DNA of 64,000 bases. It comes from Rugalucina vietnamica (Eukaryota; Mollusca; Bivalvia; Lucinida; Lucinidae). The stretch spans positions 21,889,456 to 21,953,455 of the forward strand of contig OZ024879.1 in the NCBI GenBank assembly GCA_964017185.1. The letters run 5' to 3'. The notes beneath the pieces were generated by a model. It was not told where the DNA came from, made no database searches, and was given only the letters and a program-made list of their open reading frames with translations. Made by a program: the position numbers and the translations under genes. Below are positions 16,301 through 64,000 of this stretch, piece by piece. The stretch's first letter is position 1, and each line of letters starts with the position of its first letter.

Positions 16301-16620
16301 TGAATATGCAAATTCAAAAAATTGCATTACTCACTGTAGGATGAACGGGCTATATCTAAGCTTTAAAATGAGACCAATTTCAGTGGTCTAGGATAAGTAA
16401 CAATGGAGATGTGGTCAATTTTCTATGTACACCCCCATGCTCAAGAATCGCTTTAATGGTTGCCATGGAAACCATGCATTTTTTCATAGTGCAATTGAGT
16501 TTATCTTTGAGGACAAAAATTCTTTGCATTTCTGGGGTCCCAATGAACGATTTGGCACCCATGAAAAATTGTCCTGGGAGGGGGGGTGCAAGGTAGGTCA
16601 AATTAGCTCCCGGGGTAACA
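13331..16620. mobile_element. 3.28-kb foldback element with 3-bp target duplication
   Basis: Two arms of about 1.55 kb (13334 to about 14890 and about 15050 to 16617) are imperfect inverted copies around a spacer of about 160 bp. The outer ends read TACCCCGGGAGCTAATTTGACC, inverted at the right end. ACA lies on both sides (13331-13333 and 16618-16620) and occurs once in the uninterrupted LINE sequence of the other copy, which proves insertion with a 3-bp duplication. The arms contain repeated phrases such as TTCATGAATATTAATGAAA but no transposase frame. It must move, if at all, with proteins supplied elsewhere. The superfamily is not assigned. A 3-bp duplication is known for PIF/Harbinger and some CACTA elements. 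Confidence 0.9.
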
Positions 16621-19533: not shown

Positions 19534-19595
19534 TAAATAATTTAGAGAGGAGATTTAAATGCGTGACCTTTTGTTTAAATGTAGACTGGAAACTT

Positions 19596-20828
19596 CTACT
19601 TTGGAGCTGTGATTGGTGACCGAGGACGATGGCCACGGGAACCAGGGCGCGAGGCAACCTCGTCCATCTCCATGGCATCGTCATTAGCCAGAGCTCCAAA
19701 TTTGTTATACTGTTGGACGGGATCATCTGATCCCTTCTGCACCCTACTGGATGCAGAATGTGATTTTGCGCTTGTACTCGGTTGGTTTGGTTTTGAACTA
19801 ACGTTTGCTTGTTCTGACAGAGATTTGCTTGATGTTACGTTCTGATTTTGAGAAATATTGTTTCTGTTTGGTTTCCTCGCAATGAGAACTTTTGAACTCC
19901 CTGTAATCTTACAGTCTTCGACACTGTATTGTGTAGCAGCTGTTTTGGTTTCTGGTTTGGCAGCGACGCCAGCGAGTGATTTGACTATATGTGAGAAACT
20001 AAATTCAGGCTTCTGTTCAAGTTGTTTTCGAGCTTCAAGATATGTCAAATTCTTTGTTATCTTCAATCGCATAATTTCTTTTTCCTTCTTCCATGTTTCG
20101 CATTCATTTGACCGTGATAGATGTGCTCCGCCACAGTTGACACATTTTGTGGGGATTTTGCAGTGATTTGTATGATGGTCATGGTTTCCCATACCACATC
20201 TTTCACAGACTGACCCGGGGTCAACTGGGCATTTGTCCTCATGGTGTCCAAATTTCTGACAGTTAAAGCATCTCAAAGGATTTGGTATGTACAGATCGAC
20301 AGGAATAATTTGATAAAAGATTTTCAGAGATTTAGGTGGTACAACTGAGTCAAATGTTAAAAGAATGGTATTCGTGTTGATTGTGTCTTGTCCTTTTTTA
20401 ACTGTGAAGCGTTTTACTGCTGTAACACCTTGATTTTCCAAGTACTCGAGTATGTTTTTTTCCGATTCTCCTTTGAGATTTCTGTCTCTGATTATGCCTT
20501 TGGAAGAGTTTAGAGTTTTGTGTGGTTTAACTTCTACTGGTAGATTGAAGAACTTTTTTGATTTTAAAAGAATGTCTGTTTGCATGTTCCTTGTTGTTTC
20601 TACTAACAATGTTCCGTTTTTTAATTTCTTCACAGATTTTGGTGTGCATATCATAGATTCAATTTGTTTCTCAATAACGAAAGGTGACAGTGATGTAACT
20701 TGTGTTTCTTTGTTTGTTGACTCAATAATAATAAACTTTGGAAAATTTTCTTGTGCTCTAAACAGTGTCGAAGCGTCTATATCGTCGTCGGAGTCCGGTC
20801 GTTGTCGTTTGTGTGCCATTGAATCCAT
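19596..20828 (-). CDS. LINE ORF1: gag-like RNA-binding protein
   Basis: This 410-residue protein would coat the element RNA and deliver it to the nucleus. A charged N-terminus is followed by an RRM-like region (about 95-180, around LNSSKGIIRDRNLKGESEKN). Three zinc knuckles follow: CFNC...H...C (187-200), CERC...H...C (208-223) and CVNCGGAH...C (229-243). A Ser/Asn-rich tail ends RSPITAPK. The start at 20828 is the first ATG after a 5' UTR shared with the facing copy. No frame damage is seen. The stop precedes ORF2 by about 60 bp. It is the intact counterpart of the broken ORF1 at 21902. Confidence 0.9.
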   Translation of the reverse strand: MDSMAHKRQRPDSDDDIDASTLFRAQENFPKFIIIESTNKETQVTSLSPFVIEKQIESMICTPKSVKKLKNGTLLVETTRNMQTDILLKSKKFFNLPVEVKPHKTLNSSKGIIRDRNLKGESEKNILEYLENQGVTAVKRFTVKKGQDTINTNTILLTFDSVVPPKSLKIFYQIIPVDLYIPNPLRCFNCQKFGHHEDKCPVDPGSVCERCGMGNHDHHTNHCKIPTKCVNCGGAHLSRSNECETWKKEKEIMRLKITKNLTYLEARKQLEQKPEFSFSHIVKSLAGVAAKPETKTAATQYSVEDCKITGSSKVLIARKPNRNNISQNQNVTSSKSLSEQANVSSKPNQPSTSAKSHSASSRVQKGSDDPVQQYNKFGALANDDAMEMDEVASRPGSRGHRPRSPITAPK

Positions 20829-21250
20829 TTTTTTTAGTTTTAAGCCTCGACGGCTATGCGCTTCACCCTCCTTGGAGCCCTACAAGGGGACGCTATACGG
20901 AAACGGCTCTCCAGTTTCAAGCGCCAAAGCAACATACCCGTCATACTCGCCGTGCAAGATTCCAAAGTACTTCAGACTACCCAAGCTTTAACAACAAATG
21001 AATATTAAGTCAGATGTCTAATAAAGAAAACCGAAATAACATTCAGACGTTGTACCCACCCTTCCTCTCAACCTAGACCCAAGTAACCCAGAAATACCGA
21101 AAAACAAGCCCGTCGATTGACCCTTAAACCACCGCCTTCTGAGATATAGGGAAAAGGATGATTAAATGAAGAAATTTGGAACACGGTTGCGTATCATTCG
21201 ATACTGAAAAAGTTAGAAGGAAGAAGAGATCTCAGGGCAAGGCATGGCAG

Positions 21251-21490
21251 GGCCCGTACCGGACCCGGATTTGAATAGGCCGGTCGCTCCCTCATGCGGA
21301 ACCGTAAAACCCGGTCAAAAGAGGTGCCACCTGTTTGCCGTGGGTGGATACCCGTAAGCCGGAGAAGAGGATCCTGGAGGTTGAGGGACAGGCCAGAGAT
21401 CTTCACCTGTCTCAACACGCCTCTTTGGCCTCGGATTCGGTGAAAACGGGAGGCCGTGGAGGCTCGACACGGTCAGTCGGCTGCCATGCC
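21251..21490. repeat. 240-bp repeat between the two LINE 5' ends
   Basis: This G+C-richer sequence occurs again in opposite orientation at 28617-28856, just after the 3' tail of the plus-strand LINE. It therefore flanks that LINE as an inverted repeat. It contains an open frame that includes GIHPRQTGGTSFDRVL on one strand, but I do not recognise a protein. GGCATGGCAG and its complement lie near its two ends here. Confidence 0.8.
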
Positions 21491-21901
21491 TTGCACTGAG
21501 ATCTCTTCTTCCTTCTAACTTTTTCAGTATCGAATGATACGCAACCGTGTTCCAAATTTCTTCATTTAATCATCCTTTTCCCTATATCTCAGAAGGCGGT
21601 GGTTTAAGGGTCAATCGACGGGCTTGTTTTTCGGTATTTCTGGGTTACTTGGGTCTAGGTTGAGAGGCAGGGTTAGTACAACGTCTGAATGTTATTTCGG
21701 TTTTCTTTATTAGACATCTGACTTAATATTCAGTTGTTGTTAAAGATTGGGTAGTCTGAAGTACTTTGGAATCTTGCACGGCGAGTATGACGGGTATGTA
21801 GCTTTGGCGCTGGAAACTGGAGAGCCGTTTCCGTATAGCGTCCCCTTGTAGGGCTCCAAGGAGGGAGAAGCGCATAGCCGTCGAGACTTAAAACTAAAAT
21901 C

Positions 21902-22967
21902 ATGGCTGCTTCAAATCTCAAACGACTTAGACCGGACTCGGACGACGACGAACATACAACTTCGATTTTCACTTCTCAAGAAGCTTTTGCACGATACTTA
22001 GTCATTAAATCGAAAGATGAAGACAAACCAATTACTTCTTTATCGCCCTTTGTTATCGAAAAACAAATAGAGGCTGTGATTGGCACCGCCGAATCAGTGA
22101 AGAAGCTTAAAAATCAAACTCTTCTCGTCGAAACATTACGGAAAGGACAAACAGACAATTTGAAGAAAATGACCTCCTTCTTTGCCATACCAGTGGAAGT
22201 CACTGAACATCAGAGTCTGAACTCGTCAAAAGGCATCATCAGAGAAAAAATGCTAAAAATGGAGTCAGAAGAAAACATCCTTGAGTATCTAAGCCCTCAG
22301 GGTGTTATTACACATGTCAAACGTTTCAAGATAAAGAATGGCGAATTAATAAACACGAACACACTGCTTCTGACTTTCAACTCTGTTGTTACACCGAAAA
22401 CACTTAAAATCTTCTACCAGATCATTCCAGTCGAACTTTACGTTCCCAATCCGCTTAGGTGTTTCAATTGCCAACGGTTCGGACATCATGAAAACAACTG
22501 CCCTGTCGTGCCTGGGTCAGTATGTGAAAATTGCGGAACTGGCGGTGACGACCATCGGACAAGCAAATGTAAGAACCCAGCTAAATGTGTAAATTGTGGA
22601 GGACCTCACATGTCCAGATCCAGTGATTGTGAAGTCTGGAAAAAAGAAAAGGAGGTCATGAAAATCAAGGTTACTCAGAGACTAACATATCCTGAGGCTA
22701 GAAAGGTGTACGACCAACAAACACCAGAATTTACTTTCTCCAAAATTGTATCATCAACTCCCCCAAAACCTGAAACTAAAACAACATACAAATGCTAAAC
22801 CACATTCTGCATCCAGTAGGGTGCAAAAGGGATCAGATGATCCCGTCCAACAGTATAACAAATTTGGAGCTCTGGCCAATGACGATGCCATGGAGATGGA
22901 CGAGGTTGCCTCGCGCCCTGGTTCCCGTGGCCATCGTCCTCGGTCACCAATCACAGCTCCAAAGTAG
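21902..22967 (+). pseudogene. LINE ORF1, frameshifted
   Basis: The ATG at 21902 opens a frame with the same plan as the intact ORF1 of the facing copy: RRM-like region, then zinc knuckles CFNCQRFGHHENNC, CENC...H...C and CVNCGGPH...C. After PPKPETKT a deletion removes most of the Ser/Asn-rich linker and shifts the frame, giving a stop at 22798. The true C-terminus continues in another frame to 22967 and ends RSPITAPK. The N-terminal two thirds differ from the minus copy at many positions, while the C-terminal tail is identical residue for residue. This implies a mosaic origin. Confidence 0.85.
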
Positions 22968-23029
22968 AAGTTTCCAGTCTACATTTAATCAAAAGGTCAC
23001 GCTTTTAAATATCCTCTCTAAATTATTTC

Positions 23030-24308
23030 ATGGGTAGCAAATATAAAATAATACAATGAAACTGTCGAGGTGTAAAACCACGTTTTGAAGAACTACTACT
23101 TCTTTTGTCACTACTTAGACCTTCTGTTTTCTGTCTTCAAGAAACTTTCCTCAAACCTAATGACACGTTTACTTTGAAAGGCTTCAATGTTTACAATCAC
23201 ATTCACTTGGATTGTCTAAGAGCTTCTGGTGGAAGCTCTTTACTAGTCCATTCAACATTACCACAACGTCAAATTAAAACAGATCTACAAGCAGTAGCTG
23301 TTTCTGTTACACTCGAGAAAGAGATAACTTTCTGCTCAGTCTATATCCCTCCCTCTTATCTTTTAAGATCTGAACAACTGACTTCTTTACTTGAACAGCT
23401 TCCTTCACCCTCTATATGTTGGTAGGTGACTTCAATGGTCATAATGTGCTTTGGGGTTGTAATGACAATGATCCCAGAGGAGAATTAATCGAAGATTTCA
23501 TCACGAAAAACGACATTTGTTTGATGAATGATAAATCGAACACTTATCTAGATTCTGGTAAAGGCACTTTCTCATCTCTTGATCTTTCACTCTGCCACCC
23601 CTCTCTCTATCTTGACTATGACTGGTCTGTTTGTGAAGATCAACGCGGATCTGACCACTTTCGAATTTTAATTGAAAGCGTTCAGACTCATGATGAAGCC
23701 CATAACCCCAAATGGAAATTACATAAAGCAAATTGGGATTTATTTCATACCTTATGTAATGAGTCCCTTACTGATACTACTCCGACTGATTCTTCTGATC
23801 ATATAACTTACTTCACCTCTTCTTTAATAAATATATCAGAGAAATGTATCCCCAAAACCTCGACAAACCCAAAGAAAAGTAACCCATGGTACAATGACGA
23901 TTGTAAAGAAGCTATCAAACAACGGAAAGACACTTTGTCGAAGTTCTGCAAGTTCCCAACGCATGAAAATTTAAATACTTATAGGAATTCTAGAGCAAAA
24001 GCCCGTCGGACTATAAAGTCTGCAAAACGCAAATCATGGAGAACATACGTATCTAATTTGAATTATAAAACACCCACTAAAACAGTTTGGGACATGGTTA
24101 GGAAAATATCCGGTAAATCTAAATCTGCTACTTATCATCATCTTAATTACAACTTCAACAATGCGAACGAAACAGCTTCCACAAAACAAGATATAGCAGA
24201 TACTTTGGCATCACAATTTTGTTCAAATTCCTCAACTAGTCATTATTCTGAGGAATTTCAAAAATACAAGAAAGAACAGGAAAAGACTAAATTAAACTTT
24301 AAGTCCTC
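23030..24308 (+). pseudogene. LINE ORF2, first (upstream) partial copy
   Basis: This is the duplicated beginning of ORF2. Codon 10 is TGA (23057-23059), where the other copies have TGG in QWNCRG. A frameshift near 23410-23420 separates LPSPSICW from the re-opened MLVGDFNGHN frame. The frame then runs through the endonuclease core and pre-RT region. At 24309 it jumps into the ORF1 zinc-knuckle sequence of the second duplicate, making a chimeric frame (23416-24516) with SSN|CGGPHMSRSS at the junction. The reverse transcriptase is absent, so this copy is dead. Confidence 0.9.
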
Positions 24309-24685
24309 AAATTGTGGAGGACCTCACATGTCCAGATCCAGTGATTGTGAAGTCTGGAAAAAAGAAAAGGAGGTCATGAAAATCAAGGTTACTCAGAGAC
24401 TAACATATCCTGAGGCTAGAAAGGTGTACGACCAACAAACACCAGAATTTACTTTCTCCAAAATTGTATCATCAACTCCCCCAAAACCTGAAACTAAAAC
24501 AACATACAAATGCTAAACCACATTCTGCATCCAGTAGGGTGCAAAAGGGATCAGATGATCCCGTCCAACAGTATAACAAATTTGGAGCTCTGGCCAATGA
24601 CGATGCCATGGAGATGGACGAGGTTGCCTCGCGCCCTGGTTCCCGTGGCCATCGTCCTCGGTCACCAATCACAGCTCCAAAGTAG
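24309..24685 (+). pseudogene. Duplicated 3' part of LINE ORF1
   Basis: This is the second copy of ORF1 from the third zinc knuckle (CGGPHMSRSSDC) to RSPITAPK. It carries the same linker deletion and frameshift as 22591-22967. It has no start of its own and is the left part of the tandem duplication. Confidence 0.9.
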
Positions 24686-24747
24686 AAGTTTCCAGTCTAC
24701 ATTTAATCAAAAGGTCACGCTTTTAAATATCCTCTCTAAATTATTTC

Positions 24748-27700
24748 ATGGGTAGCAAATATAAAATAATACAATGGAACTGTCGAGGTGTAAAACCACG
24801 TTTTGAAGAACTACTACTTCTTTTGTCACTACTTAGACCTTCTGTTTTCTGTCTTCAAGAAACTTTCCTCAAACCTAATGACACGTTTACTTTGAAAGGC
24901 TTCAATGTTTACAATCACATTCACTTGGATTGTCTAAGAGCTTCTGGTGGAAGCTCTTTACTAGTCCATTCAACATTACCACAACGTCAAATTAAAACAG
25001 ATCTACAAGCAGTAGCTGTTTCTGTTACACTCGAGAAAGAGATAACTTTCTGCTCAGTCTATATCCCTCCCTCTTATCTTTTAAGATCTGAACAACTGAC
25101 TTCTTTACTTGAACAGCTTCACCCTATATGTTGGTAGGTGACTTCAATGGTCATAATGTGCTTTGGGGTTGTAATGACAATGATCCCAGAGGAGAATTAA
25201 TCGAAGATTTCATCACGAAAAACGACATTTGTTTGATGAATGATAAATCGAACACTTATCTAGATTCTGGTAAAGGCACTTTCTCATCTCTTGATCTTTC
25301 ACTCTGCCACCCCTCTCTCTATCTTGACTATGACTGGTCTGTTTGTGAAGATCAACGCGGATCTGACCACTTTCCAATTTTAATTGAAAGCGTTCAGACT
25401 CATGATGAAGCCCATAACCCCAAATGGAAATTACATAAAACAAATTGGGATTTATTTCATACCTTATGTAATGAGTCCCTTACTGATACTACTCTGACTG
25501 ATTCTTCTGATCATATAACTTACTTCACCTCTTCTTTAATAAATATATCAGAGAAATGTATCCCCAAAACCTCGACAAACCCAAAGAAAAGTAACCCATG
25601 GTACAATGACGATTGTAAAGAAGCTATCAAACAACGGAAAGACACTTTGTCGAAGTTCTGCAAGTTCCCAACGCATGAAAATTTAAATACTTATAGGAAT
25701 TCTAGAGCAAAAGCCCGTCGGACTATAAAGTCTGCAAAACGCAAATCATGGAGAACATACGTATCTAATTTGAATTATAAAACACCCACTAAAACAGTTT
25801 GGGACATGGTTAGGAAAATATCCGGTAAATCTAAATCTGCTACTTATCATCATCTTAATTACAACTTCAACAATGCGAACGAAACAGCTTCCACAAAACA
25901 AGATATAGCAGATACTTTGGCATCACAATTTTGTTCAAATTCCTCAACTAGTCATTATTCTGAGGAATTTCAAAAATACAAGAAAGAACAGGAAAAGACT
26001 AAATTAAACTTTAAGTCTTCAAATAATGAAGAATATAATTCTCCTTTTAATTTAGATGAACTAAAAGACGCCATCAGTAAAGCCCATGATACAGCAACAG
26101 GTCCTGACGAAGTTCACTATCAAATGTTAAAACATCTTCCACCAAAATCACTTCAGGCTCTCTTAGATATTTTTAACGATATGTGGGAAACTGGAAAGTT
26201 TCCCGAAAGTTGGGAACTAGCCACTATAATACCCATTCCTAAACCTGGGAAAGATCATGCAGAACCAAACAGCTATAGACCGATAGCACTAACAAGTTGT
26301 CTTTGCAAAACCTTAGAGAGAATGATAAATGTAAGACTTGTATGGTACTTAGAAAGTAATAACCTAATATCTCCTGTTCAGTCGGGCTTCCGTTCTGAAC
26401 GAAGTACCAACGACAATTTAGTTAGACTGGAAACCTTTATTCGTGATGCCTTTGTTGCAAAGGAGCATGTTGTTGCTGTGTTTTTCGACTTGGAAAAAGC
26501 TTATGATACCACCTGGAGACATGGTATTATGCGAGATCTACATGTTCTCGGAATACGTCGCAGATTAGCTACATTTATTGAAAATTTCCTTGCGGATCGT
26601 TGGATCCAGGTTCGTGTGGGATCGACTTTATCCGAAAAGTTTGATCAAGCACAGGGTGTCCCACAAGGGAGCGTCTTGTCTACAACACTGTTCAATATTA
26701 AAATAAACAGCATAATGGACTGTCTGGATCCTAAGACAGATGGATCCCTTTATGTAGATGATTTCTGTATGTGTTACAGGTCAAAAAGTATGAGAACTAT
26801 CGAAAGGCACTTACAGCAGTGCATTAACAGAACAGAAAACTGGGCCTCACATAATGGTTTCAAATTTTCCAAGTCTAAAACACAATGTGTACATTTCTGT
26901 AAACTACGGAAAGTACACAACGATCCCGAACTCTATTTATATGGATCTCTTATTCCAGTAGTTGAAGATTTTAAATTTCTTGGAGTTCTTTTTGATCGTA
27001 AACTTTCTTTCATACCACATATCAAGTACTTAAAAGCCAAATGCCTAAAAGCATTAAACTTACTGAAAGTATTATCACATACTGACTGGGGTGCTGATCG
27101 CACTGTCCTTCTACAGCTATACCGTTCCCTCATTCGTTCAAAATTAGATTATGGATCCATCGTGTATGGATCGGCAAGACCATCATATATCAGTTCTCTT
27201 GACACAGTTCACCACCAAGGCCTAAGATTAGCTCTAGGTGCTTTTCGAACATCACCTGTACAAAGCCTCTATGTTGAGGCTGAAGAGCCATCTCTATATT
27301 TACGACGAGAGAAACTTGCCCTGCAGTACGCCATTAGAATTGCGGCTAATCCATCAAATCCAGTTTATAAGGTGTCTTTTCCGCCATATATTTCTGAAGA
27401 GGTCGTACAGCTTTATGAAAGAAAACCAAATGTCATCCGGTCCTTTGGTTTACGAGTTGCACCACTTTTAGAATCAGCAAACATCCAAAAAGATAAAATA
27501 GAAGAACATTTTGTTTCCGAAATACCATCATGGTGCATTAGAAAACCAGAAATTAATTTAACTCTACATTCAGGGAAAAAATCCGAATCAAATCCACACC
27601 TTCTAAAAGAAAGTTTTCATCAACTACAATCTCAATTTATCGACTATCAATGTATTTATACTGATGGTTCAAAAGAAGAAAACAAAGTTGGTTGTGCTAC

Positions 27701-28448
27701 TTTTACAAACGGCAATTGCAAAACGTTACGCTTACCTGATGGTTCTTCAATTTTCACAGCGGAAGCTAAAGCTATAGACTTAGCTTTAGACTTCACAAAT
27801 GAGTGTAACTCAAAGGACAAATTCATTATATTTTCTGACTCTATGTCAGTTCTACAGGCCTTAAACCATACGTCATCAAAAAACCCTCAAATTCAAAAAC
27901 TATTAATAAAACACCATACCATCTCAGAAGTGAAAACAATTATTTATTGCTGGGTTCCCAGTCATATAGGTATATATGGAAATGAGAAAGTTGATAAGAA
28001 CGCTAAAGAATCGTTAAATCTAGAACAAACTGTTTTCAAAATTCCTTATGTCAATTTTAAACCTTTTATTAACGAGTACATCTCTGATAAATGGCAAACA
28101 ATCTGGAACGGAGCGAACTTTGATAAATTAAGGGAAGTTGAACCGATCGTTAAACGACCAAAAGTAATTCATAAACTTTCGAGACGAGAAGAAATCGTTC
28201 TTGCTCGTCTCCGAATCGGCCATACAAGAATAACACATTCCCACTTATTAAAGCGAGAAGATCAACCCAAATGCATTGGCTGTGATACACCATTTACAGT
28301 TAAACACTTTCTTTTGGAATGCACTGACTTTGCGGCGGAGCGAGTTTCCTGTTTTCAAGTTAATAAATTGAGAGAGTTGTTTAAAGATGTACCCGTTGGA
28401 AACATTTTATCATTTCTTAGACAAGTAAATCTGTTTTATAAATTATAA
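24748..28448 (+). pseudogene. LINE ORF2: endonuclease (frameshifted), RT, RNase H
   Basis: The ATG at 24748 starts the endonuclease (QWNCRG, QETF). A frameshift near 25122-25130 ends that frame at LHPICW. The rest is one open frame from MLVGDFNGHN at 25128, with 1106 codons. Counted from 25128, the reverse transcriptase catalytic YVDDF is at residues 542-546. RNase H begins at YTDGSK (844-849) with later acids in FTAEAKAI, IFSDSMS and NEKVDKNAK. A C-terminal CIGC...H...C motif lies at about 1049-1066. RT, RNase H and the zinc motif look intact. A copy without the small frameshift would be full-length. The RNase H domain supports membership in the I group of LINEs. Confidence 0.9.
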
Positions 28449-33483: not shown

Positions 33484-35100
33484 AGGTACAAGTAGGCAAA
33501 GATCAGGAAAAGGCGCAATCAGAAAAAGATTCCCACTCCAAAAACCGAGGTGGGAAAAAACCAAACTAACAATCAGGTACTTATACCATGAAACATATCG
33601 TAAGCCGAATGAGCAGCTATTTTCCCAATAGGTGGCCACTCAGTTACCTTAACTTAACTAAAAATATGAAAATATACATAAGGCGCCAACAGCACAAAAA
33701 AAATTTAAACACTAGGACATAAAACAAAAAGAACCACCACAGAAGTATCGACTTGGAACGATCAGTAACACAAAGTTACTGGCGGGCTTAAACCGGTTTT
33801 ACATGGCCATAACCTCACCCTCAGCTTCTGCAGTGGTTCATAACATTTAGTTAGTTATTCGGTCCTCGTGGTGAATCTCTAACTAGTCAATGAATCATCA
33901 AGAACAAACAAATAAATCATGATAAACATCCTGATGAATCAAAAACCAGGACTCACAGACTGAGTAAGCTGCCCGACGATGGAGATCCCTGGGCGCCGAA
34001 TAACCTACTAACTCCGGAGCAAAAGAAAAACACCAGTTGGACCCCGGTGGGCCAAGCAACAGACAAGAAGCTCCGGCCCCAACCAGCTAAAATGAATAGC
34101 TTTATGTCGGGGCCATCATAGAGTCTGACGCCCGACCCACCGGCGTGCAATTAAAGAAGGCAGCATAGTTATCAACCATGATTGGGTTAAAAACTAAGCA
34201 TGCAGACTGTCGCATAACATTCAAGTTATAACCTATACGTCTGTAACGTGTTATGATTTTTCTTAACTGAAAAGAAAAATCATTAATTCCTTTAAGTTTC
34301 TTAAATTTGTAAACCAAGTCACCATAAAATTCAGGTTCCGAAAGGCCCTCACTTAAAAGCGTCTTTAACCCAACATTATATTTGGAAATCAATTCATAGT
34401 GTCTACGATAAAATTTAGAAAATGTTTTTCGAAGTTTATGATACCGATAGCCCTGTTGGAGAAGTTTTGCCGTTAAACATTTATTTCGAGCGTTGAAGTC
34501 TGTAACATGATTGCATACTCTAGCAAACCTTATAAGTTGCGAAATGTATACACCATAAGAAGCACGACGAGGAATGTCACCATCCAAAAAAGGAAAATTT
34601 ACTATATCAAAATCAAAGTCATCGCGCTTATCATAAATTTTAGAAGAAACAAATCCATTTGCAACAGAAAGATGTAGATCTAAAAAGGGGGCTTCAGTAT
34701 CTGAGATATTGGCTTTGTTCAACTGAAGTTCAGGTGGATAAATTTGATTGACCATACCTTCAAAATAAGGGTTGTCAATGTTCAAAAGGTCATCGAGGTA
34801 CCTAGATGTGGAATTAAAAGCCTCGATAACATCAGCTTGATTATCATGGTTAAGAGAATCCATGAAATCTCTTTCGTAGCAGTATAAAAATAAATCAGCT
34901 ACGAGAGGTGCGCAATTTGTACCCATCGGAATTCCAACAATTTGTCTGTATAACTTGGTCCCAAATCTAATATAAATATTATCAAGGAGATAGGATAAGG
35001 CGTCGCATACATTCTGACATGACCAAAGTGTATACCGACTTTGGTCAGAGGAAGTAAAAAAAGCCTTTCTGTCATTACATGCCAAATAAAGTGAACCATT
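33484..35100 (-). mobile_element. Penelope-like retroelement, 5'-truncated
   Basis: The element is read on the minus strand from about 35100 to 33484. It consists of a reverse transcriptase frame and about 600 bp of 3' sequence ending in CTTTGCCTACTTGTACC. It is cut at its 5' end next to a tandem repeat (35110-35700). Its 3' end occurs in seven places in the window, mostly as short fragments, as expected of many 5'-truncated insertions. Confidence 0.7.
34102..35085 (-). CDS. Reverse transcriptase, Penelope-like, partial
   Basis: Of 327 residues, the first part already lies inside the palm domain. GIPMGTNCAP is at 51-60 and the catalytic YLDD at 96-99. LDLHLSV and the conserved KIYDKRDDFDFDIVNFPF follow, and then YGVYISQLIRFARVC. 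This string is common in Penelope-like reverse transcriptases of aquatic invertebrates and fish. The C-terminal part (RRIGYNLNVMRQSACLVFNP) has no nuclease motif I can identify. The N-terminal fingers are missing, so the fragment is inactive. The methionine at 35085 is not a true start. Confidence 0.7.
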   Translation of the reverse strand: MACNDRKAFFTSSDQSRYTLWSCQNVCDALSYLLDNIYIRFGTKLYRQIVGIPMGTNCAPLVADLFLYCYERDFMDSLNHDNQADVIEAFNSTSRYLDDLLNIDNPYFEGMVNQIYPPELQLNKANISDTEAPFLDLHLSVANGFVSSKIYDKRDDFDFDIVNFPFLDGDIPRRASYGVYISQLIRFARVCNHVTDFNARNKCLTAKLLQQGYRYHKLRKTFSKFYRRHYELISKYNVGLKTLLSEGLSEPEFYGDLVYKFKKLKGINDFSFQLRKIITRYRRIGYNLNVMRQSACLVFNPIMVDNYAAFFNCTPVGRASDSMMAPT

Positions 35101-37435: not shown

Positions 37436-38663
37436 GAAGGTACAAGTAGGCAAAGTTCAGGAAAAGGCGCAATCCCACTCCAAAAACCGAGGTGGGAAAA
37501 AACCAAACTAACCATCAGGTACTTATACCATGAAAACATTTCGTAAGCCGAATGAGCAGCTATTTTCCCAATAGGTGGCCACTCAGTTACCTTGACTAAA
37601 AATATGAAAACATACATAAGGCGCCAACAGCACAAACATATTTTAAACACCAAGACATAAAAAACACCACAGAAGTATCGACTTGGAACGATCAGTAACA
37701 CAAAGCTACTGGCGGGTTTAAACCGATTTTACATGGCCATAACCTCACCCTCAGCTTCCGCAGTGGTTCAGTGATATACAAGAAATAAGAAAAATCATAT
37801 TAAAAAAATACTAAACATAGATACATGTATCAACGTTTAACACGAATAACGAAAGCAGGGTGAACAGCTATTGAAGGTATTAGGTGGTCACAGTGCTAGC
37901 TTGGACAGAAGAAGTAAAATGCAGAGGGCTAAGTGAACAGCCAAATTATAATCGGGTGACCACAAAGCCATGAAACTCGTAATCGGAATAACTTTGATAA
38001 GTGTGACTTTGATAAGTGTGAACCACAACAGTAGTACCGCCTTGGACCGGTCAGTTATAAACAACTGGGGGGCTTAAATCGATTTTACATGGTCATAACC
38101 TCACCCTCAGCTTCTGCAGTGGTTCATAACATTTAGTTAGTTCTTCGGTCCTCGTGGTGAATCTCTAACTAGTCAATGAATCATCAAGAACAAACAAATA
38201 AATCATGATAAACATCCTGATGAATCAGAAACCAGGACTCACAGATTGAGTAAGCTGCCCGACGATGGAGATCCCTGGGCGCCGAATAACTTACTGACTC
38301 CGGAGCAAAAGAAAAACATCAGTTGGACCCCGGTGGGCCAAGCAACAGACAAGAAGCTCCGGCCCCAACCAACTAAAATGAATAGCTTTAAGTCGGGGCC
38401 ATCATAGAGCCTGACGCCCGACCCACCGGCGTGCAATTAAAGAAGGCAGCATAGTTATCAACCGTGATTGGGTTAAAAACTAAGCATGCAGACTGTCGCA
38501 TAACATTCAAGTTATAACCTATACGTCTGTAACGTGTTATGATTTTTCTAAACTGAAAAGAAAAATCATAAAATACATTTTTTTCTTGGCCCAACCAAGT
38601 AGCATTCACAACAACCTCCTTACAGACATCATAATGTTTGCTGTTATTGTATTTGATGTGCAA
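37436..38663 (-). mobile_element. Second Penelope-like fragment with duplicated 3' region
   Basis: About 58 codons of the reverse transcriptase C-terminus (38576 to about 38402, FRKIITRYRRIGYNLNVM...) are followed by 3' sequence matching 33780-34100. After an interruption (about 37760-38040), a second 3' piece (37436-37760) matches 33484-33835. Two 3' units in a row recall the tandem arrangement known for Penelope-like insertions. Confidence 0.65.
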
Positions 38664-55570: not shown

Positions 55571-56907
55571 GTAGATTGCAGAAGTCATGTTTACGAAACA
55601 TTTAGATATTTCTAAAGCGATCCAGCTGCTTCAATACTACACTGATTTCAGTCCAGGAAGGCAGGATATGTATAAACATGTCCATCTATCTTTCTACACT
55701 GCCATATGCATATCGGCTAAATGAGCTAATTCTTAAAATGCAATAATGAATTTTGGGCGTCGCATCGAAGTCAGTGCCTTATTTCACATTAGATATCATA
55801 TTTACGACCGTCGACAAAAGGCTTTTGCATGTAATTGTATATAAATGACGCGGAGGACAGAACAGGACAGAACAGGAATTATCATGTTAGTCATCCCGTG
55901 CACTAACAACTTCCTATGCTCCTTTTGCTCTTGCATAATTTATGCTAATGAAGTAATTCGGATACCTTCGGCACAATGTCATTTTCATTGCACCCTCCCC
56001 ATGCGCGAGCTAAATTTGACCCCTAAAAGGTAAACATTGCCATGCGCAGTCTACAGAAAGATGTCTCGGAGGCATTAATCCCCATAATAAACAAAACGCC
56101 CAACTCTCTCTTTGATATTCTTAAGAGTTCTGACCTAATTAACCTGTTGTTTTGACATCGATCCTCTCAAAATGAATCTCACAGGTGTCATGTTCCAAAT
56201 CGATTTATTATCATTTAACGAATTTTCCCATGGCCAATGTTACTTTTTGTCGATTTTCTACGCGTTTGTCAGTATGAATATGCAAATAACCTCTTGAGTC
56301 ATGTGATATGCGCAAGAGTCATCAACTTCAAAGTCGTTTGTTTACATTGAAATTTATCTACTTCCGGTTGAAAAAATGCATTGATTTTGCTAAAAATAAG
56401 TAATTTCAAAGGTCAAAGTCCATGTAAATTTAGCGGCAACTGCATAACTAACATACCTGTGTCAGAATTAAGCCATTGTCAAAGCAGTGAGTGGTAAAAG
56501 AAAATAACTACAGCCTGTTTTTCATTGAGCACGGGTTGTGGAAGGGTAATAGTCAGCACTCGTTCAGTACAACTAATACCGGGAATGGTAATGACACCCC
56601 GTATGTACGTGTATATTGTCATCGATAATGATCGATAATATGTGTTTAAAACAAGTATTGGGTTGTATTACCAATTTATTTGAGTGTTTATTAAAATTAT
56701 AGACATAGTCTTGATGAATTCTGGCGGATTAACGATATGTGTACGAAAAACTGAGGGCAAGGGTCAACTCGGCCCTCGGAAAGCTCGGATGTCGGTAACC
56801 TCGTCTAGCCTGCTATTATATTTCTCACAGGTGAAAACACATGATCCCGAAATGAACACTATTCTGTTGTCCCCTACATACACGCGCATGCACGCATGCA
56901 CACATAC

Positions 56908-57200: not shown

Positions 57201-60200
57201 GAGAGGATACCTTTGTAATTACCATGTCATCTTCACCAGTCTTTAATAAGAGAAGAAGGATTCGGATACTGGTACAAACTATTGGTGTATTTTTTTTTCG
57301 AAAATAATTAAATTGTTGCATTAGTCATTTTCATTTACAGTCTCAATGTCCCAGTTATGAGAAGGTTCATGTTAACACTTTTCATGTCTATTGTTTATTC
57401 ACCTACTAACGACTTTTCCATAATATTTGGATTTCCGAGTATAAACTCGTGTGCATGCATGTGCTTGACTAATAATAAATGTTGCTTGCTCACTCATCTA
57501 CATTGTATTCACTTTTACCTGCACGTTGGCGACAGTGTAATGTTCTTTTGATTCAGTTATACACCGCTTTAAAGGTTAATTCACTCACGTCGAGACGAGC
57601 CGGTTGGTGCATGCTTGTGTGAAGTCAAGTTCTAACACTACTGTATGTACGTTATACTTTAGAATCTCTGAGTCCTATAGCAGGGGTCCAATAGCAGGAT
57701 TTGAGTGTGATAATTAAAGTGAATGTTGTTAATAAATATGAGGTGTCTAATCTTTATAGGAAAGTAAACAGACACCTTCAGATAAGCCCAGCTCAACACC
57801 TATATTATTTAGTGATGAAGATGAAAAACAGGTAAACGTATATGGTGGCCCAAGTTGAAAAGTTGCTGTCTCTACTCGAAATAGCTCGACTCTAGCTATT
57901 TTCTGCCATAATCTGAATCTGAGACTGACTTCGTATTCATTATCATAAGACTATGTTGATGATAGCCAGGTTATAAAATTCTACTAGGTGTATGCTGACC
58001 GTTCGAAATAAGGTACAAGGAAAATATTTTCATCTCTAGTCCAAGTTTAAATTTGAAATGAACACCTAGCTTCTAGCGTTATCCCTTGTGCAGGGAAACC
58101 AGAATTTCATTCTATGGAATCCTAACTGCCCTTTTGTTATCTGTTTGTTTTCTAAACAAATGCCGAAGGTCACTTGCAAACTCCTCTGCTTTTGCTTGTA
58201 TTCATATTCAACATGCCTTTTATTAATATAATTGTATTTGTATCTGCGCTGTACTGATAAATAGTATATATATGACGCAGTTAGAACTGAGTGACCGCCT
58301 ATTGGGAAATAGCTGATCACTTGGCTTACGATATGTTATCTAAATGGAAGTACCTAATTGTCATGTGAAGTTTTTCCCACCTCGGCTTTTCGTGTGGGAA
58401 TTTCTTTCTGATTGCGCCTTTTCCTGATAATCATGTGCCTATTTGTACCTTTTTATAAGTAAGCATTGGAAGACACAAGATGAGTTATGACTGTGATCTC
58501 TTTCATGAATCTACAGTATGTAATCTTTCTAGGAAAGTGAACAGGATCTCGACCAACCAAGCTCAACTCCAATATTATTTGGCGATGACGAAGACCAAAG
58601 GGTATAAGTATTCAGCCTATCTGCAATAATTGGTGGCTTCCAGTCTACAAATTAGCAAAAATGGCAAAACATTTATTTATTTATTAGAAATTTCTCGACA
58701 CACATATATATACAGACAGTTCAATACATTTGTATTCATACATATAACAGCATTCTAATGTATATATATAAGCATCAAAGGATGGCAAAACATATTACAT
58801 GAACTCTCAGAGTATCCTATACAAGGTGGACAATCATGTGATAAAAACCAATTATTGAGTACTAGTAATTCTGACAGTACCAGTAAGCAAATCAGGCATA
58901 GTTTTAGAGTCTCTTTCGATTGCATCATTTCCTGATCGTTGTCTACTGGTTCTGTTCAAATTACTAGTACAAAATAATTGATTTTAGTCACGTGATTGAC
59001 CACCTTACTATACCACATTAATTTTGTAGGACACCCTATCTTCAAATATTAATTACTGGAAACCAGCAATTAATGCACAGAATCTTTAATTTGTTTCTGG
59101 ACCACTAAGTTCATTCTGATGACAATACGTGTGCCATTCTGCTGTGTGGTGGAAAAGTTAACGCACCGGCACAATTTTACTAGAAATGAGCATTTATGGA
59201 CCTGCGTTAATTTTATAAACGACGGTTTTAATGTCATAGCATAAGACCGGGCATAAGACGGACTGAACATACACGTATAACTGCTAACTTGTTTACATCC
59301 GTGTGTTTGAATAAGTAGACTGCTAACAGTGGCTTATTAACTTCTTGCTTCTGTCATTCTTTAACATAATGCCTTTTTCTCCGCACTAATATTGATATGC
59401 ACCAAACCGCTAGTTTCTTGGAGGGTTTATCAAAGTCATAACCTTATGCTTTTTAAATAGTATTTACGAATGCTGATTATTCTTGTATGGGTAATTTACA
59501 CTTCAAACATGCTGTCTTTACGAAAACTTGTCCATGCATATACAGAGATTTTTCAGCTGTAAATTTCATTAGAAAATTGTTGATATTTTTTATTTTTGCT
59601 TAAAACATCAATTGTGGGTACACGTTAAAATCCGCCTCACCGATGCGGTTCTAACGAGTGCCCACAATATATGTTGGGGCAAAAAAAAAAAAGGAAAAAA
59701 TGTACCGTACACCCCAGCATACCCCAGTTTGCTAGATAGATGTGGGGTGTAATGGGGTATATATTACACGGACATGTTATCCTGACGATTAGATTTTGAC
59801 TTTGACATCCCCTTGATAGTTAGTTTTACTAACATAGTTAGTCTTACTAACAATTAGATATATCTTTTAGTGTAGTTATTCTGCTTTTTAGGAACATGTA
59901 GATCCAGCTGAGCCCACACTATCACCACCACCCATATGTAGTAATTGTAGTAATGCTAGTGCAGATTCGCAGGATACGATGTGGCAGGCTTATATATATG
60001 AAGGCAAAGGGGATTACAACGTTGATGTCGATGTTGAGCGCGAAAATAATGATAGCCTTCACTTTAAACTTGAGACTGTAGAATTAGAAAATGAATCGTT
60101 GAAAGAGATCAACGCAGAATTAGAAAGAGAAATTGAAGATTTGAAAAAAATAAATGCAGATCTCCGAGAAAATGCAGATACTGAATTGTTAAAAGAAAAT

Positions 60201-60287
60201 GCCGCTCTTAAAGAGCGTATTGAGGAACTCGAGTTCCTTTTAAACCTTCATACAAAAAACACACAAGCACAAAACACATCAGATTAA
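57201..60287 (+). CDS. Coiled-coil protein upstream of and in frame with RAG1-like ORF
   Basis: I read four exons, all phase 0: 57201-57271 (5' UTR, then ATG at 57224), 57760-57831, 58533-58601 and 59892-60287. Acceptors are TTTTTCAG, TTTATAG, TTTCTAG and TTTTTAG. Donors are GTACAA, GTAAAC and GTATAA. The predicted protein has 194 residues. A basic start (FNKRRRIRIL) is followed by two related acidic exons (both containing PSSTPILF and an Asp/Glu tail). Next come ICSNCSN and a long leucine-rich coiled coil (ETVELENESLKEINAELERE and on). The TAA at 60285-60287 is followed after nine bases by the RAG1-like ATG in the same frame. The acidic exons look like a duplication of one exon. It may be the N-terminal part of a RAG1-like protein severed by a stop, or a separate cistron. 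Confidence 0.65.
57551..57606. repeat. SINE 3' fragment in intron
   Basis: TGATTCAGTTATACACCGCTTTAAAGGTTAATTCACTCACGTCGAGACGAGCCG matches the 3' end of the SINE at 10493-10735. It is in the first intron of the coiled-coil/RAG1-like locus. Confidence 0.6.
58284..58452 (+). repeat. Penelope-like 3'-end repeat in intron
   Basis: TGAGTGACCGCCTATTGGGAAATAGCTGATCACTTGGCTTACGATATG through CCCACCTCGGCTTTTCGTGTGGGAATTTC to GTGCCTATTTGTACC is an opposite-strand copy of the repeat at 33484-33660. It lies between the two related acidic exons. Confidence 0.75.
59601..59675. repeat. Hairpin repeat, copy 2, in last intron
   Basis: AAAACATCAATTGTGGGTACACGTTAAAATCCGCCTC is answered by a mutated GATGCGGTTCTAACGAGTGCCCACAATATATGTT. 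Same family as 51364-51442. The following CACCCCAGCATACCCCAGTTTGC matches the flank of copy 1. Confidence 0.75.
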
Positions 60288-60296
60288 TTTAATACC

Positions 60297-62408
60297 ATGA
60301 ATACCCATAAGAATAATATACTTTTTATGTGTAGGGTATGTGGTAAGGATAAAATTAAAAAAGGATATCCAGTCTCTGCTTACATGGCAGAGATAATTAC
60401 TGCCTACAAAATTGATATTTCTCTGGACGTGGCTTCCGTACATCCCACGCAAGTATGTCAATCGTGTCGGATGATGTTGTATAGGTTTAGGCGCGAAATA
60501 TCTGACGGCCTCACATCTAAGGTTAAATTAGCACCACTGTTTCCTTTTCAAGAGCATACCGACAATGAACCGTGTAATGTGTGCAACAAAACCAAACGTA
60601 CAGGCAGGCCTCCAAAACGGAATGGCAAAACACATATAATTTGTGATATAGGTGAAGAGAGTGACACCACAGATACTGCAAGTGAGGCCGGTTCTCCCAG
60701 TGCTTCTCACCTCCCAAATAATCAGCCGGGTCCCTCAAGCTCATCCAAGTCAACTTCTTCAAAGAGAAAGCTTGACTATGCAGATGAGCTTGAGGAATCC
60801 TCATCTACTAATACCACCATAATCACGAGCATTGACCTAGACCGGATTAATGAAAAAGCACTGGGAGATATCCTGACTTGCACTATATGCAAAGGTGTCC
60901 CTACTCTGCCAGTGGTTACCACATGCAGCCATATCTACTGCAGGACATGCATATTGGCTTGGTTAGAAACAGCCAGTGCATGTCCTGTATGTAGAACATA
61001 CTTGAATGAACATGACATCGGTCCTCTGAGAGGCCATCTCTCTGTGTTGTTTGACGCACTGACTGTGACATGCTGCAATAAATTAAATGGCTGCAGTGAA
61101 ACGCTTAACCTGAAGAATTTTAATGAACATGAAAAGACTTGCAAATTTGACAAGTACTCGAACTTATTGAAGCCTAAATCAAATGTTGTCAGGGGAGAAA
61201 GTCTTAATAAGATACCAATTTATGATTGTAGTAGAAAATATCTCAAACAAAAAAGGCTTAAAGAGGCATTTACATCATTAACTGAGTTTTGCAGTTCACA
61301 TCATGAAGATGAGACAGACGTTCTGTTTTTCATGTTAAGGCAGAAATTATATGATAAAAACGACGATAGACATCACGCCATAGATTCAATTTGGCAAGGC
61401 AATTCTGTTAAACTTACACCGAATCAGTGCCTCGCGATGCGAATTGACACTCTGCAAAGTAAGCAGCAATACAGGTCACAGTATAACTTTCTGAAAGATA
61501 AGGCACAAAATCCTTTGCAACCACCAAGCTCTCTTGATGCTGTTGAAATGCTACATACACCACCTTCTGTGCGGTACTCAATCGAAGGTTTCGATTATTT
61601 TGACCATTACTATCACACACCAGCGAAAAGACGCAATGAAAATGTAGCTGTTTATGACTCATCACAAATAACTTTCGAACCCATTGATATCCTTGATGAT
61701 TTTAGTGAGAATATGCCTGAGCTAGCTACCCCAAATGTAAAAGGGGTCAGGTGGAGATACCCGGATGCGATCGCGAAAACCCTGTCAGATTTAGAACCTA
61801 TGATATGTAAGGGTTTAGAAAGTAATGGTTACAATATGTACGACCCATCCATCTTGCTCACTACCAGCATAAAAGATGGAGCGGATGGTATGGGCGATGT
61901 ATCCGTACATAAGTCTATTTCTGACAGGTATTTACCCGACAAAGCCTTTCGGTTTTCCTTCTGTGTTTTGAAATGTGAGTTGGTTACTGAAGCTGGTGAA
62001 GCTATTGAAATATTTTGTGAAGAGCGACCAAACTCTGTGCGTACGAATAGACCACTTTTGGAATGCCTATGTGACGAAAATAACCATGCATCCAGCGCGT
62101 TATGTCTATTGCCTATAGAAAATGAAAGAGAATTCTTAAAAAATAAGGTTCTAAAGGTACAAACAGAAAATGGCTGGAGAAGGCATTCACTCAAATTTTT
62201 TAATAGTATGATTGATGAAAAACTAGATAGGAACACCAACCGGTATTTTTTTGACAAACCGCTTTTCGTCAAAGCTAGGACATCTTTCGAAAGCAGCCAG
62301 GGCTTCGCAGTTTGTATATACATGAAGTACCTATCAAGTGGTTCTCTAAAAACTTATTTTGTCTGCCTGTCTTATCTGCAAGTGCCTGAAAAATGGACTA
62401 GAAGTTGA
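60297..62408 (+). CDS. RAG1L: RAG1-like transposase/recombinase, C-terminus not seen
   Basis: RAG1 and its transposon-borne relatives cut DNA at recombination signals or terminal repeats, normally with a RAG2-type partner. This 703-codon frame follows the RAG1 plan. The N-terminal zinc domain has CRVC (12-15), YKIDISLDVASVHPTQVCQSC (37-57) and CNVC (93-96). A low-complexity linker follows. The RING finger has C195, C198, C210, H212, C215, C218, C229 and C232, and the next zinc finger C259-C282. A helical region (about 320-440) has LTPNQCLAMRIDTL, matching the RAG1 dimerisation and DNA-binding segment. The pre-RNase H part is VRWRYPDAIAKTL. Catalytic Asp530 lies in DGMGD and Asp640 in IDEK. 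They are 110 apart, against 108 in vertebrate RAG1. After this the likeness fades and the frame stops at 62408. The last catalytic Glu and the C-terminal zinc residues are absent. They are lost, or in later exons or sequence beyond the window. Confidence 0.93.
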   Translation: MNTHKNNILFMCRVCGKDKIKKGYPVSAYMAEIITAYKIDISLDVASVHPTQVCQSCRMMLYRFRREISDGLTSKVKLAPLFPFQEHTDNEPCNVCNKTKRTGRPPKRNGKTHIICDIGEESDTTDTASEAGSPSASHLPNNQPGPSSSSKSTSSKRKLDYADELEESSSTNTTIITSIDLDRINEKALGDILTCTICKGVPTLPVVTTCSHIYCRTCILAWLETASACPVCRTYLNEHDIGPLRGHLSVLFDALTVTCCNKLNGCSETLNLKNFNEHEKTCKFDKYSNLLKPKSNVVRGESLNKIPIYDCSRKYLKQKRLKEAFTSLTEFCSSHHEDETDVLFFMLRQKLYDKNDDRHHAIDSIWQGNSVKLTPNQCLAMRIDTLQSKQQYRSQYNFLKDKAQNPLQPPSSLDAVEMLHTPPSVRYSIEGFDYFDHYYHTPAKRRNENVAVYDSSQITFEPIDILDDFSENMPELATPNVKGVRWRYPDAIAKTLSDLEPMICKGLESNGYNMYDPSILLTTSIKDGADGMGDVSVHKSISDRYLPDKAFRFSFCVLKCELVTEAGEAIEIFCEERPNSVRTNRPLLECLCDENNHASSALCLLPIENEREFLKNKVLKVQTENGWRRHSLKFFNSMIDEKLDRNTNRYFFDKPLFVKARTSFESSQGFAVCIYMKYLSSGSLKTYFVCLSYLQVPEKWTRS

Positions 62409-62409
62409 C

Positions 62410-62820
62410 TTTCCCATGGGAAAACAGGGGAAAATCATGTTTTCCCATGGGAAATGGCACTTTCCCATGGGAAAACAGGTTGGCCATGGACGAAAACTGG
62501 GCCATGGGCAAAACATATTGGCCATGGGAAAAATGAAAAAAAAATCTTATGGTCAATCAGTTATTAAACACAAAATTATAATCATTGTTGCTTTGGCCAT
62601 AATGGCCACGTATATATTTTGCAGTTATAACTATGTGAAAAAAATAACATTTGGGCCATGGCCGACTAAAAATGGCCATGGCCAGATTTGCCCATGGCCG
62701 ACAAAAAGTGGCCATGGCCATTGTGGTTTTGCCCATGGACAATTCAAATGCTCCCATGGCCAAGTATTTATGGCCATGGCCATTTTAATCACACTCAAGT
62801 GGGCCATGGCCATTTGGATG
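62410..62820. repeat. CCATGG-palindrome cluster
   Basis: About 14 CCATGG sites occur in 400 bp, many extended to longer palindromes such as TTTCCCATGGGAAA and GGCCATGGCC, in two sub-blocks (about 62413-62530 and 62655-62810). A frame open from about 62350 to 62880 passes through the block and encodes repeats of PMGK and GHG. I see no reason to think it is translated. The block begins within five bases of the RAG1-like stop codon. Confidence 0.9.
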
Positions 62821-62889
62821 GACATTCTATGCACCATTGAAAAAGAGAAAAGGTTAAAAATTATAGAAAAGGCAGGTTAAAAGCATTCG

Positions 62890-63780
62890 GTAAGACGGAT
62901 AGATTATGAAAGGTTAAAAATAGTTAAGCAGCTAAAAAATAATTAAGTAGATGCTAAAATCAGCTTTAACAGCTTGGCGTGTCTCGGGCGTGTGACTTAT
63001 ACGTCCCGATTAACTTGATTAAGTTACAGGTGGTTGAATACACTCTGAACGCACAAGTGTATGTTACATGGGAGGCACGCCAGTGTATGTTACATGTGCG
63101 TTCCGATTTCATTAGATGTTGCTTCAGTAGCTTGCCCTATAAGCGTGTGTGAAACACATGTTGAACTTTCGATGCACGTCTGTAGCGCGTGCTAACAGTT
63201 AGCGTGTCTGGGACTTATCACAACCGTCCTCAAAAACTTGGAGATTTTTTATACGTCCGGCACTCGCCTCAGTCACGGGCTAATGTGTAACTGCTAAAGC
63301 GAGTTAAAAGAAATTAATTTTTATACGTCCAAAGTCTTCAGTGTGTTGAGATTTTTCATACGCCCGGCGCGTGTTTGGGTTATACGCTACTATATGACTG
63401 CTGTTTTAGCTAAGGTAGGATAGGGTCCGTCATCTGTCCACCATTTTCACAGATCTTCTCCTTTAAACGTGCTAAAACCACTTTGACAATCAAGGCCATG
63501 TAGCACTTATAGGAAAGGGGAAAGTGTATAAAAATAATCCAGGACAAATGACAAAGGCAATTTCCAGGGCCATATATGGTGAAAACTAAAATCTTCTCCA
63601 GAACCCAAGTCTTATGATCATGAAACTTGTCATGTAGCAGCTGCATCATGGAATACAGAACTAAAATGTGTAAATAAATAATGCACTTTGATGACCAGCC
63701 ATATGAAAATAATCTTCTTCTCTGAAACCACAAGACTCAAAGCTTGTATATTTAGTATGTAGCAATCTTATTTGATGCTT
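62890..63780. other. No gene; TATACGTCC motifs
   Basis: The phrase TTATACGTCC or TTTTATACGTCC occurs near 62997, 63248 and 63320, with a variant CATACGCCC near 63358. CGTGTGT- and GCGTGTCT-rich stretches lie between. No further RAG1-like coding sequence (for example the segment with the last catalytic Glu) was recognised down to 64000. Confidence 0.4.
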
Positions 63781-63786
63781 TACATA

Positions 63787-63812
63787 CCCCCCCCACCCCC
63801 CCCCCCCCCGAT
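63787..63812. repeat. Poly(C) tract
   Basis: Runs of C broken by a single A, followed by GATCATGCCCATGTGG. Strand-asymmetric low-complexity sequence. Confidence 0.9.
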
Positions 63813-64000
63813 CATGCCCATGTGGTTCAAAATGGTCCCACCCAAGGGGAAATAATCTCCTGTATTTATACTACAATGAAGAAAACAATAATATCCAGAA
63901 ACATTCTCTTAACCGTGAGTTTTTCATATTTTGTGTGAAGCAGTGTGAAGTAATCTTCTTTCTAAATTCTGCCACCCATGCCCCTGGGGTCCAAACAGGC

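Follow-up and report, generated by a model that had tools for sequence, protein, structure and literature searches.

A dead RAG-like transposon in a bivalve genome, a candidate third protein encoded ahead of RAG1L, and a family of small elements sharing its ends

RAG1 is the enzyme that cuts antibody genes, and RAG-like (RAGL) transposons are the best model for the origin of the V(D)J recombinase. Why, then, does a stretch of invertebrate DNA carry an open reading frame (ORF) that resembles only the N-terminal half of RAG1? The frame is open at 60297–62408 and encodes 703 aa; it lies in a 64-kb stretch (hereafter the window; C11:21889456–21953455), and the genome searched comprises 1.09 Gb in 47 contigs. 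Pfam profiles placed the RAG1 core at residues 351–647 (E = 1.5e-27), the N-terminal region RAG1_imp_bd at residues 31–105 (E = 7.7e-7) and a RING at residues 194–233 (E = 1.8e-8). Among PDB sequences, the best solved relative was the amphioxus RAG1L 6b40 (E = 2.2e-98 across residues 302–645), and vertebrate RAG1 matched with E = 5.9e-43 (best stretch 193–647). The first-pass annotation, made from the letters alone, had proposed a RAG1 homologue with a RAG1-type N-terminal zinc region and a RING, and these matches bear it out. Alignment to 6b40 also shows that D530, E594 and D640 are present at the expected places, two of which (Asp530 and Asp640) had been called correctly; we take them to be the equivalents of mouse D600 and D708, respectively. 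A protein database search with the ORF returned seven proteins, the window's own included, with P0002 and P0003 (1032 and 1033 aa) and the Pinctada imbricata protein P0006 among the relatives; comparison with a phage collection gave no match. The nearest named relatives, proteins of Pinctada imbricata and Ruditapes, point to a mollusc as the host, as had been supposed. The kept N-terminus, singled out beforehand as notable, is already known, since the main text of Martin et al. 2020 (PMC7204232) reports three N-terminal zinc motifs well conserved in most new protostome RAG1L and a RING region readily identified in molluscs.

Table 1 Coordinates of RAGL-related features in the window.
Feature	Position	Strand	Basis or remark
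Left 5-bp target duplication CCGTG	55896..55900		right CCGTG after 3' TIR at G000:C11:21963255
5' TIR, begins CACTAACAAC	55901..55940	+	genome matches; identical to element L031
Coiled-coil ORF, 131 codons, in RAG1L frame, TAA 9 nt before RAG1L ATG	59892..60287	+	first ATG 59979
RAG1L codons 1–645: N-terminal zinc region, RING, core up to third acidic residue	60297..62231	+	Pfam, PDB, relatives
D530, catalytic Asp	61884..61886	+	alignment to 6b40 RAG1L
D640, catalytic Asp	62214..62216	+	alignment to 6b40 RAG1L
4-bp target duplication TAGG of inserted element	62228..62231		second copy L009:6562-6565
First 1,769 bp of 6,275-bp insert; encodes foreign last 58 codons of 703-aa ORF	62232..64000		dispersed ends, TAGG pair

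The likeness to RAG1L breaks off at a sharp boundary. Every relative that continues beyond it (P0002, P0003, P0004 and P0006) ceases to match at window position 62231, and when the ORF was searched against the genome, at least 59 of at least 63 scored matches covered the tail only, from residues ~584–649 to residues 699–703. The tail of the ORF is a dispersed repeat, and its last 58 codons come from an inserted TIR element of 6,275 bp (L009:287–6561), which lies between the two halves of RAG1L. Its inverted ends are 86% alike across 303 columns, and by eye its flanks read on as they do in RAG1L relatives. The other half of RAG1L, found 6.3 kb downstream (L009:6563–7519), matches the RAG1 profile with E = 1.5e-32 and is 60% identical to P0002. 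It carries the last catalytic Glu (L009:7325–7327), an in-frame TGA two codons further on (L009:7331) and, downstream of this stop, the C-terminal tail motif Cx2Cx3GHx4C (L009:7478–7519, read by eye). The appearance of a half gene thus arises because the 6.3-kb element splits RAG1L. The N-terminal domains of the 'complete N-terminal half' described in the first-pass annotation are indeed present, and the 703-aa frame that was said to hold everything is open; only residues 1–645 of it are RAG1L, however, and 'half' applies solely on account of the insertion.

Could the 6.3-kb stretch instead be an intron, and RAG1L a working spliced gene? RAG1L reads through 645 codons with no stop and its halves join in frame, as such a gene would require, yet the stretch starts with AACACC and ends with GGTGTT rather than following GT-AG, lies between two copies of a 4-bp duplication, shows inverted ends alike at the level given above and an end that is dispersed in the genome, and is followed by a half gene with an in-frame TGA; we give this reading hardly any credence. 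Another possibility is that the host uses the truncated ORF of 693–703 aa, either in the role of a RING/zinc protein or to regulate RAGL in a dominant-negative manner. The intact frame would suit such a role, as would the database entry P0001, which is 100% identical and suggests the same frame in a second assembly. Against it, the tail of the ORF is repeat sequence and a young insertion accounts for the frame being open, and we consider host use quite improbable. We therefore read the locus as a RAG1L gene interrupted by a mobile element, a dead copy that explains the apparent N-terminal half-RAG1 in the gene list.

The family to which the insert belongs has AACACC ends and 4-bp duplications. 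Its ends often occur in inverted pairs, by eye mostly 29–51 kb apart, with extremes near 9 and 78 kb. A 29-kb copy (L027:162 to L029:9245, G000:C14) has an ACTT duplication and holds no stop-to-stop ORF of more than 136 aa, apart from one within its own end repeat. This copy is a giant TIR element.

Other repeats in the window were recorded in passing. Positions 16603–28448 contain a pair of long non-LTR retrotransposon copies (named by eye) that point in opposite directions; both encode a CCHC ORF1 and an ORF2 with endonuclease and reverse transcriptase. On the minus strand, positions 34060–34127 and 38346–38413 match Rfam SECIS_1 with 37.7 and 37.8 bits (threshold 35); one match falls where a reverse-transcriptase ORF ends, the other at a repeat copy of that ORF end. 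Both were set aside as doubtful, the SECIS core not being clear by eye, and they are probably a look-alike retroelement hairpin.

The first-pass annotation had also held that this RAG1L is transposon-derived, and the ends of the transposon were found. A scan for ends starting with CAC and flanked by 5-bp duplications picked window position 55901 and L010:1854, each flanked by CCGTG. The two ends have their first 10 bases in common and show gapped likeness beyond. The score of this TIR/target duplication pair was reached by none of 400 Markov-resampled pairs; among 100 pairs of unrelated real DNA, however, two reached it, and four reached the corresponding score of the second copy on C9 described below. 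Because real DNA can match the score in this way, we relied on genome copies for the ends. The 5' TIR has 40 other matches in the genome at 92–100% identity, all beginning at the CAC or no more than 3 bases outside it, and 39 of them end at window position 55940 (the remaining one at 55936). A scan of the window with the published TIR consensus yielded 75 matches against 74.2 expected, that is, no excess, and the window contains no second, inverted TIR copy with which position 55901 could delimit a small element.

So delimited, the RAGL element spans window position 55901 to G000:C11:21963254, a length of 17,899 bp, or about 11.6 kb minus the insert. It reads, in order, CCGTG, 5' TIR, a coiled-coil ORF, RAG1L, a convergent RAG2L, 3' TIR and CCGTG. 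RAG2L lies on the minus strand (L009:9197–10000 and L010:1–553) and has a PHD match (E = 2e-6) and a weak Kelch profile (E = 0.0046; the Kelch match of the C9 RAG2L is clear, at 8.8e-20). The two RAG2L are 36% identical over 278 aa. The RAG2L of the window element contains one in-frame stop and a frame change. Given this stop, together with the insertion and the TGA in RAG1L, the window copy cannot make an intact transposase: the element is whole but dead. We hold with high confidence this account of a CAC-ended, CCGTG-flanked element that carries the coiled-coil ORF, RAG1L and RAG2L, with RAG1L split by the TAGG-flanked insert and stopped by TGA, and RAG2L stopped as well. Before its decay, RAG1L would have cut at the CAC ends with the help of RAG2L, and the element would have moved by cut-and-paste. 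An assignment to Transib rather than RAGL could appeal to the CAC ends and 5-bp duplications that Transib also has according to the main text of PMC7204232; the same text describes Transib as being without the N-terminal non-core region, whereas our element has the N-terminal RAG1 region, a RING and a convergent RAG2L. With a RAG2L partner present, the Transib identity was rejected, and its probability is close to nil.

A genome search with the C-terminal half of RAG1L found two RAG1L cores, one at the window locus and one on C9, and neither of these two places is an intact autonomous copy with the window type of TIR. The C9 gene pair (L015 and L016, G000:C9:34088000–34107999) has an open RAG1L core and an open, convergent RAG2L; in this assembly, the coiled-coil ORF and the stretch preceding the RING each carry a one-base frame break. 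Its RAG2L, an open stretch of 501 aa, matches the 6b40 RAG2L with E = 1.6e-23, and its RAG1L is 87% identical to P0009, a protein from another source. The candidate TIR of the C9 copy (L016:6837 / L015:4193, AAAAT) differs from that of the window. In a tree of RAG1L C-terminal halves (34 given, 28 used after six short ones were dropped), which included few named references of families A–D, the window copy paired with P0004 (93/85) and the C9 copy grouped with P0009 and P0022 (100/99). These separate placements suggest that two RAG1L lineages exist in the genome.

The genome matches to the 5' TIR belong to a family of small elements with RAGL ends, with a median length of 723 bp where both ends were found. 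The 40 matches fall in 38 distinct stretches, all of which were read, and one of the 40 matches (C5:13259736) was not recognised as an end. Counted by end, 40 loci, among them two stretches counted twice, gave 41 ends; dropping these double entries and L037, whose flanks equal those of L036, left 38 independent ends. The far (3') end was found for 30 of these, and the other eight had no recognised 3' end within the 1.3–1.5 kb read. Perfect 5-bp duplications flank 27 of the 30 complete elements, all 27 being different; two further elements match at four of five duplication bases and one at a single base. Two of the 30 had more than one candidate 3' end, and choosing the nearest left these 27 unchanged. 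With gaps left out, the elements are 95.7–99.0% identical to the family consensus (median 98.5%), and the median pairwise difference among the 30 complete elements is 3.2%. At one locus on C4 (L046, G000:C4:8314972–8316794), two identical 723-bp elements face opposite ways some 175 bp from each other, and their target duplications differ; this pair looks like a very recent local hop. Taken together, the high identity, the perfect and varied duplications and the identical C4 pair indicate that elements with RAGL ends moved recently.

The best match, L031, ties this family to the RAGL element: all 40 bases compared at their 5' ends agree, and at its 3' end L031 matches the RAGL 3' TIR at L010:1854 in 31 of 35 columns (one gap), a likeness that none of 2000 shuffles reached. 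The small elements would on this evidence have been moved by a RAGL of the window element's lineage. Transib or some other transposase that merely shares CAC ends might have moved them instead, a reading that could draw on the lack of an intact RAGL of the window TIR type in the genome search with the RAG1L C-terminal half. The agreement of L031 with the RAG1L–RAG2L element at both ends and the 5-bp duplications of the small elements speak against another transposase, which we regard as unlikely. As dozens of datable insertions, the family moved, on our preferred reading, by RAGL also offers natural substrates for tests of RAGL end recognition.

The element contains one further frame, a coiled-coil ORF, which immediately precedes RAG1L in each of the four copies observed. 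The relative of the window ORF at C9 is 33% identical over 69 aa (E = 1e-5 in a two-sequence BLASTP). At C11:28.06 Mb, a 42-aa coiled-coil piece with a stop lies upstream of a RAG1L fragment, and at C11:37.27 Mb, an intact ORF of 137 aa (P0040; L024:8843–9253, G000:C11:37272843–37273253) lies without frame break upstream of a decayed RAG1L start. The RAG1L stretch at the latter locus is interrupted by stops and, over ~445 aligned columns, by five gaps that break the frame, and the coiled-coil ORF there was possibly retained for its own sake. From its TAA to the RAG1L ATG, the distance is in frame, at 9, 18 and 33 nt, in the window, C9 and C11:37.27 copies, respectively (by eye; C9 in the P0038 frame), an agreement expected by chance in about one case in nine. 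Over 108 codons, the C9 and C11:37.27 copies differ with dN 0.080 and dS 0.74 (dN/dS 0.108). The one-base frame break of the C9 coiled-coil ORF in the assembly does not occur in the near-identical database protein P0038, and the window copy is without the start codon found in the other copies. For P0038, AlphaFold2 (from four sequences only) predicted one long helix at residues 65–140, with pLDDT mostly above 90, and a low-confidence first half with a shorter helix at 26–49.

A database search with the coiled-coil ORF yielded three proteins among 280 candidates, namely the window's own, P0038 and P0040, so the ORF is known just from the window species or very near kin; beyond these, it appears to be either absent or too divergent to find. 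Nothing in Pfam or NCBIfam scored above a curated cut-off. In their main texts, PMC7204232, PMC4411706, PMC9885083 and PMC9435367 do not use the word 'coiled', and among the further papers listed no title or abstract opening mentions a third RAGL ORF.

We propose the coiled-coil ORF as a candidate third RAGL protein. It might rather be a host exon carried along by chance, and the narrow distribution would fit this, as would the possible splice acceptor AG (59890–59891, by eye) after which the window ORF begins. A passenger exon would hardly be expected to keep its place before RAG1L, and the RAG1L frame, in three copies belonging to two RAG1L lineages, to show a dN/dS as low as that found, or to stand intact beside the decayed RAG1L in L024; we consider the chance exon a doubtful explanation, if one to be taken seriously. 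Were the ORF an element gene, as we prefer, its protein would be made from the RAG1L transcript, and RAG1L would be translated after it, by reinitiation or by rare read-through of the single TAA. Its position, the predicted helix and the signs of selection lead us to guess that the protein may be a partner or regulator that assists or limits RAG1L. The full proposal is that bivalve RAGL has a third protein, a short coiled-coil factor whose frame immediately precedes RAG1L on a shared message and evolves under purifying selection, surviving in one copy where RAG1L has decayed, and that RAGL transposition, as recorded by the ~723-bp family, has been very recent; on balance, we judge it about evenly poised between right and wrong. 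If true, a conserved third ORF would enlarge by one protein what has until now been described as a two-gene system.

Judged by the anatomical features tested, the window element is a RAGL transposon as described in the main text of PMC7204232. It resembles protostome RAGL in that account in having a RAG1L with the N-terminal zinc region, RING, core acidic residues and CCGHC tail, and a RAG2L with Kelch and PHD, as well as convergent genes, CAC TIRs and 5-bp duplications. It differs in the coiled-coil ORF upstream of RAG1L, that main text being without the word 'coiled', and in the scale of its small derivatives: Martin et al. 2020 report a small number of non-autonomous elements (PMC7204232, main text), in contrast to the 38 independent ends of the ~723-bp family found here. 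The amphioxus RAG2L is without PHD according to the same source, whereas the RAG2L described here has one. In other respects, our genes are like those of amphioxus ProtoRAG (6b40), with E = 2.2e-98 for the RAG1L core and E = 1.6e-23 for the RAG2L of the C9 copy. We know of no coiled-coil ORF in ProtoRAG. Vertebrate RAG1 is alignable in its RING and core (E = 5.9e-43), but it belongs to a domesticated gene pair, unlike the window copy, which has transposon ends and a decayed gene.
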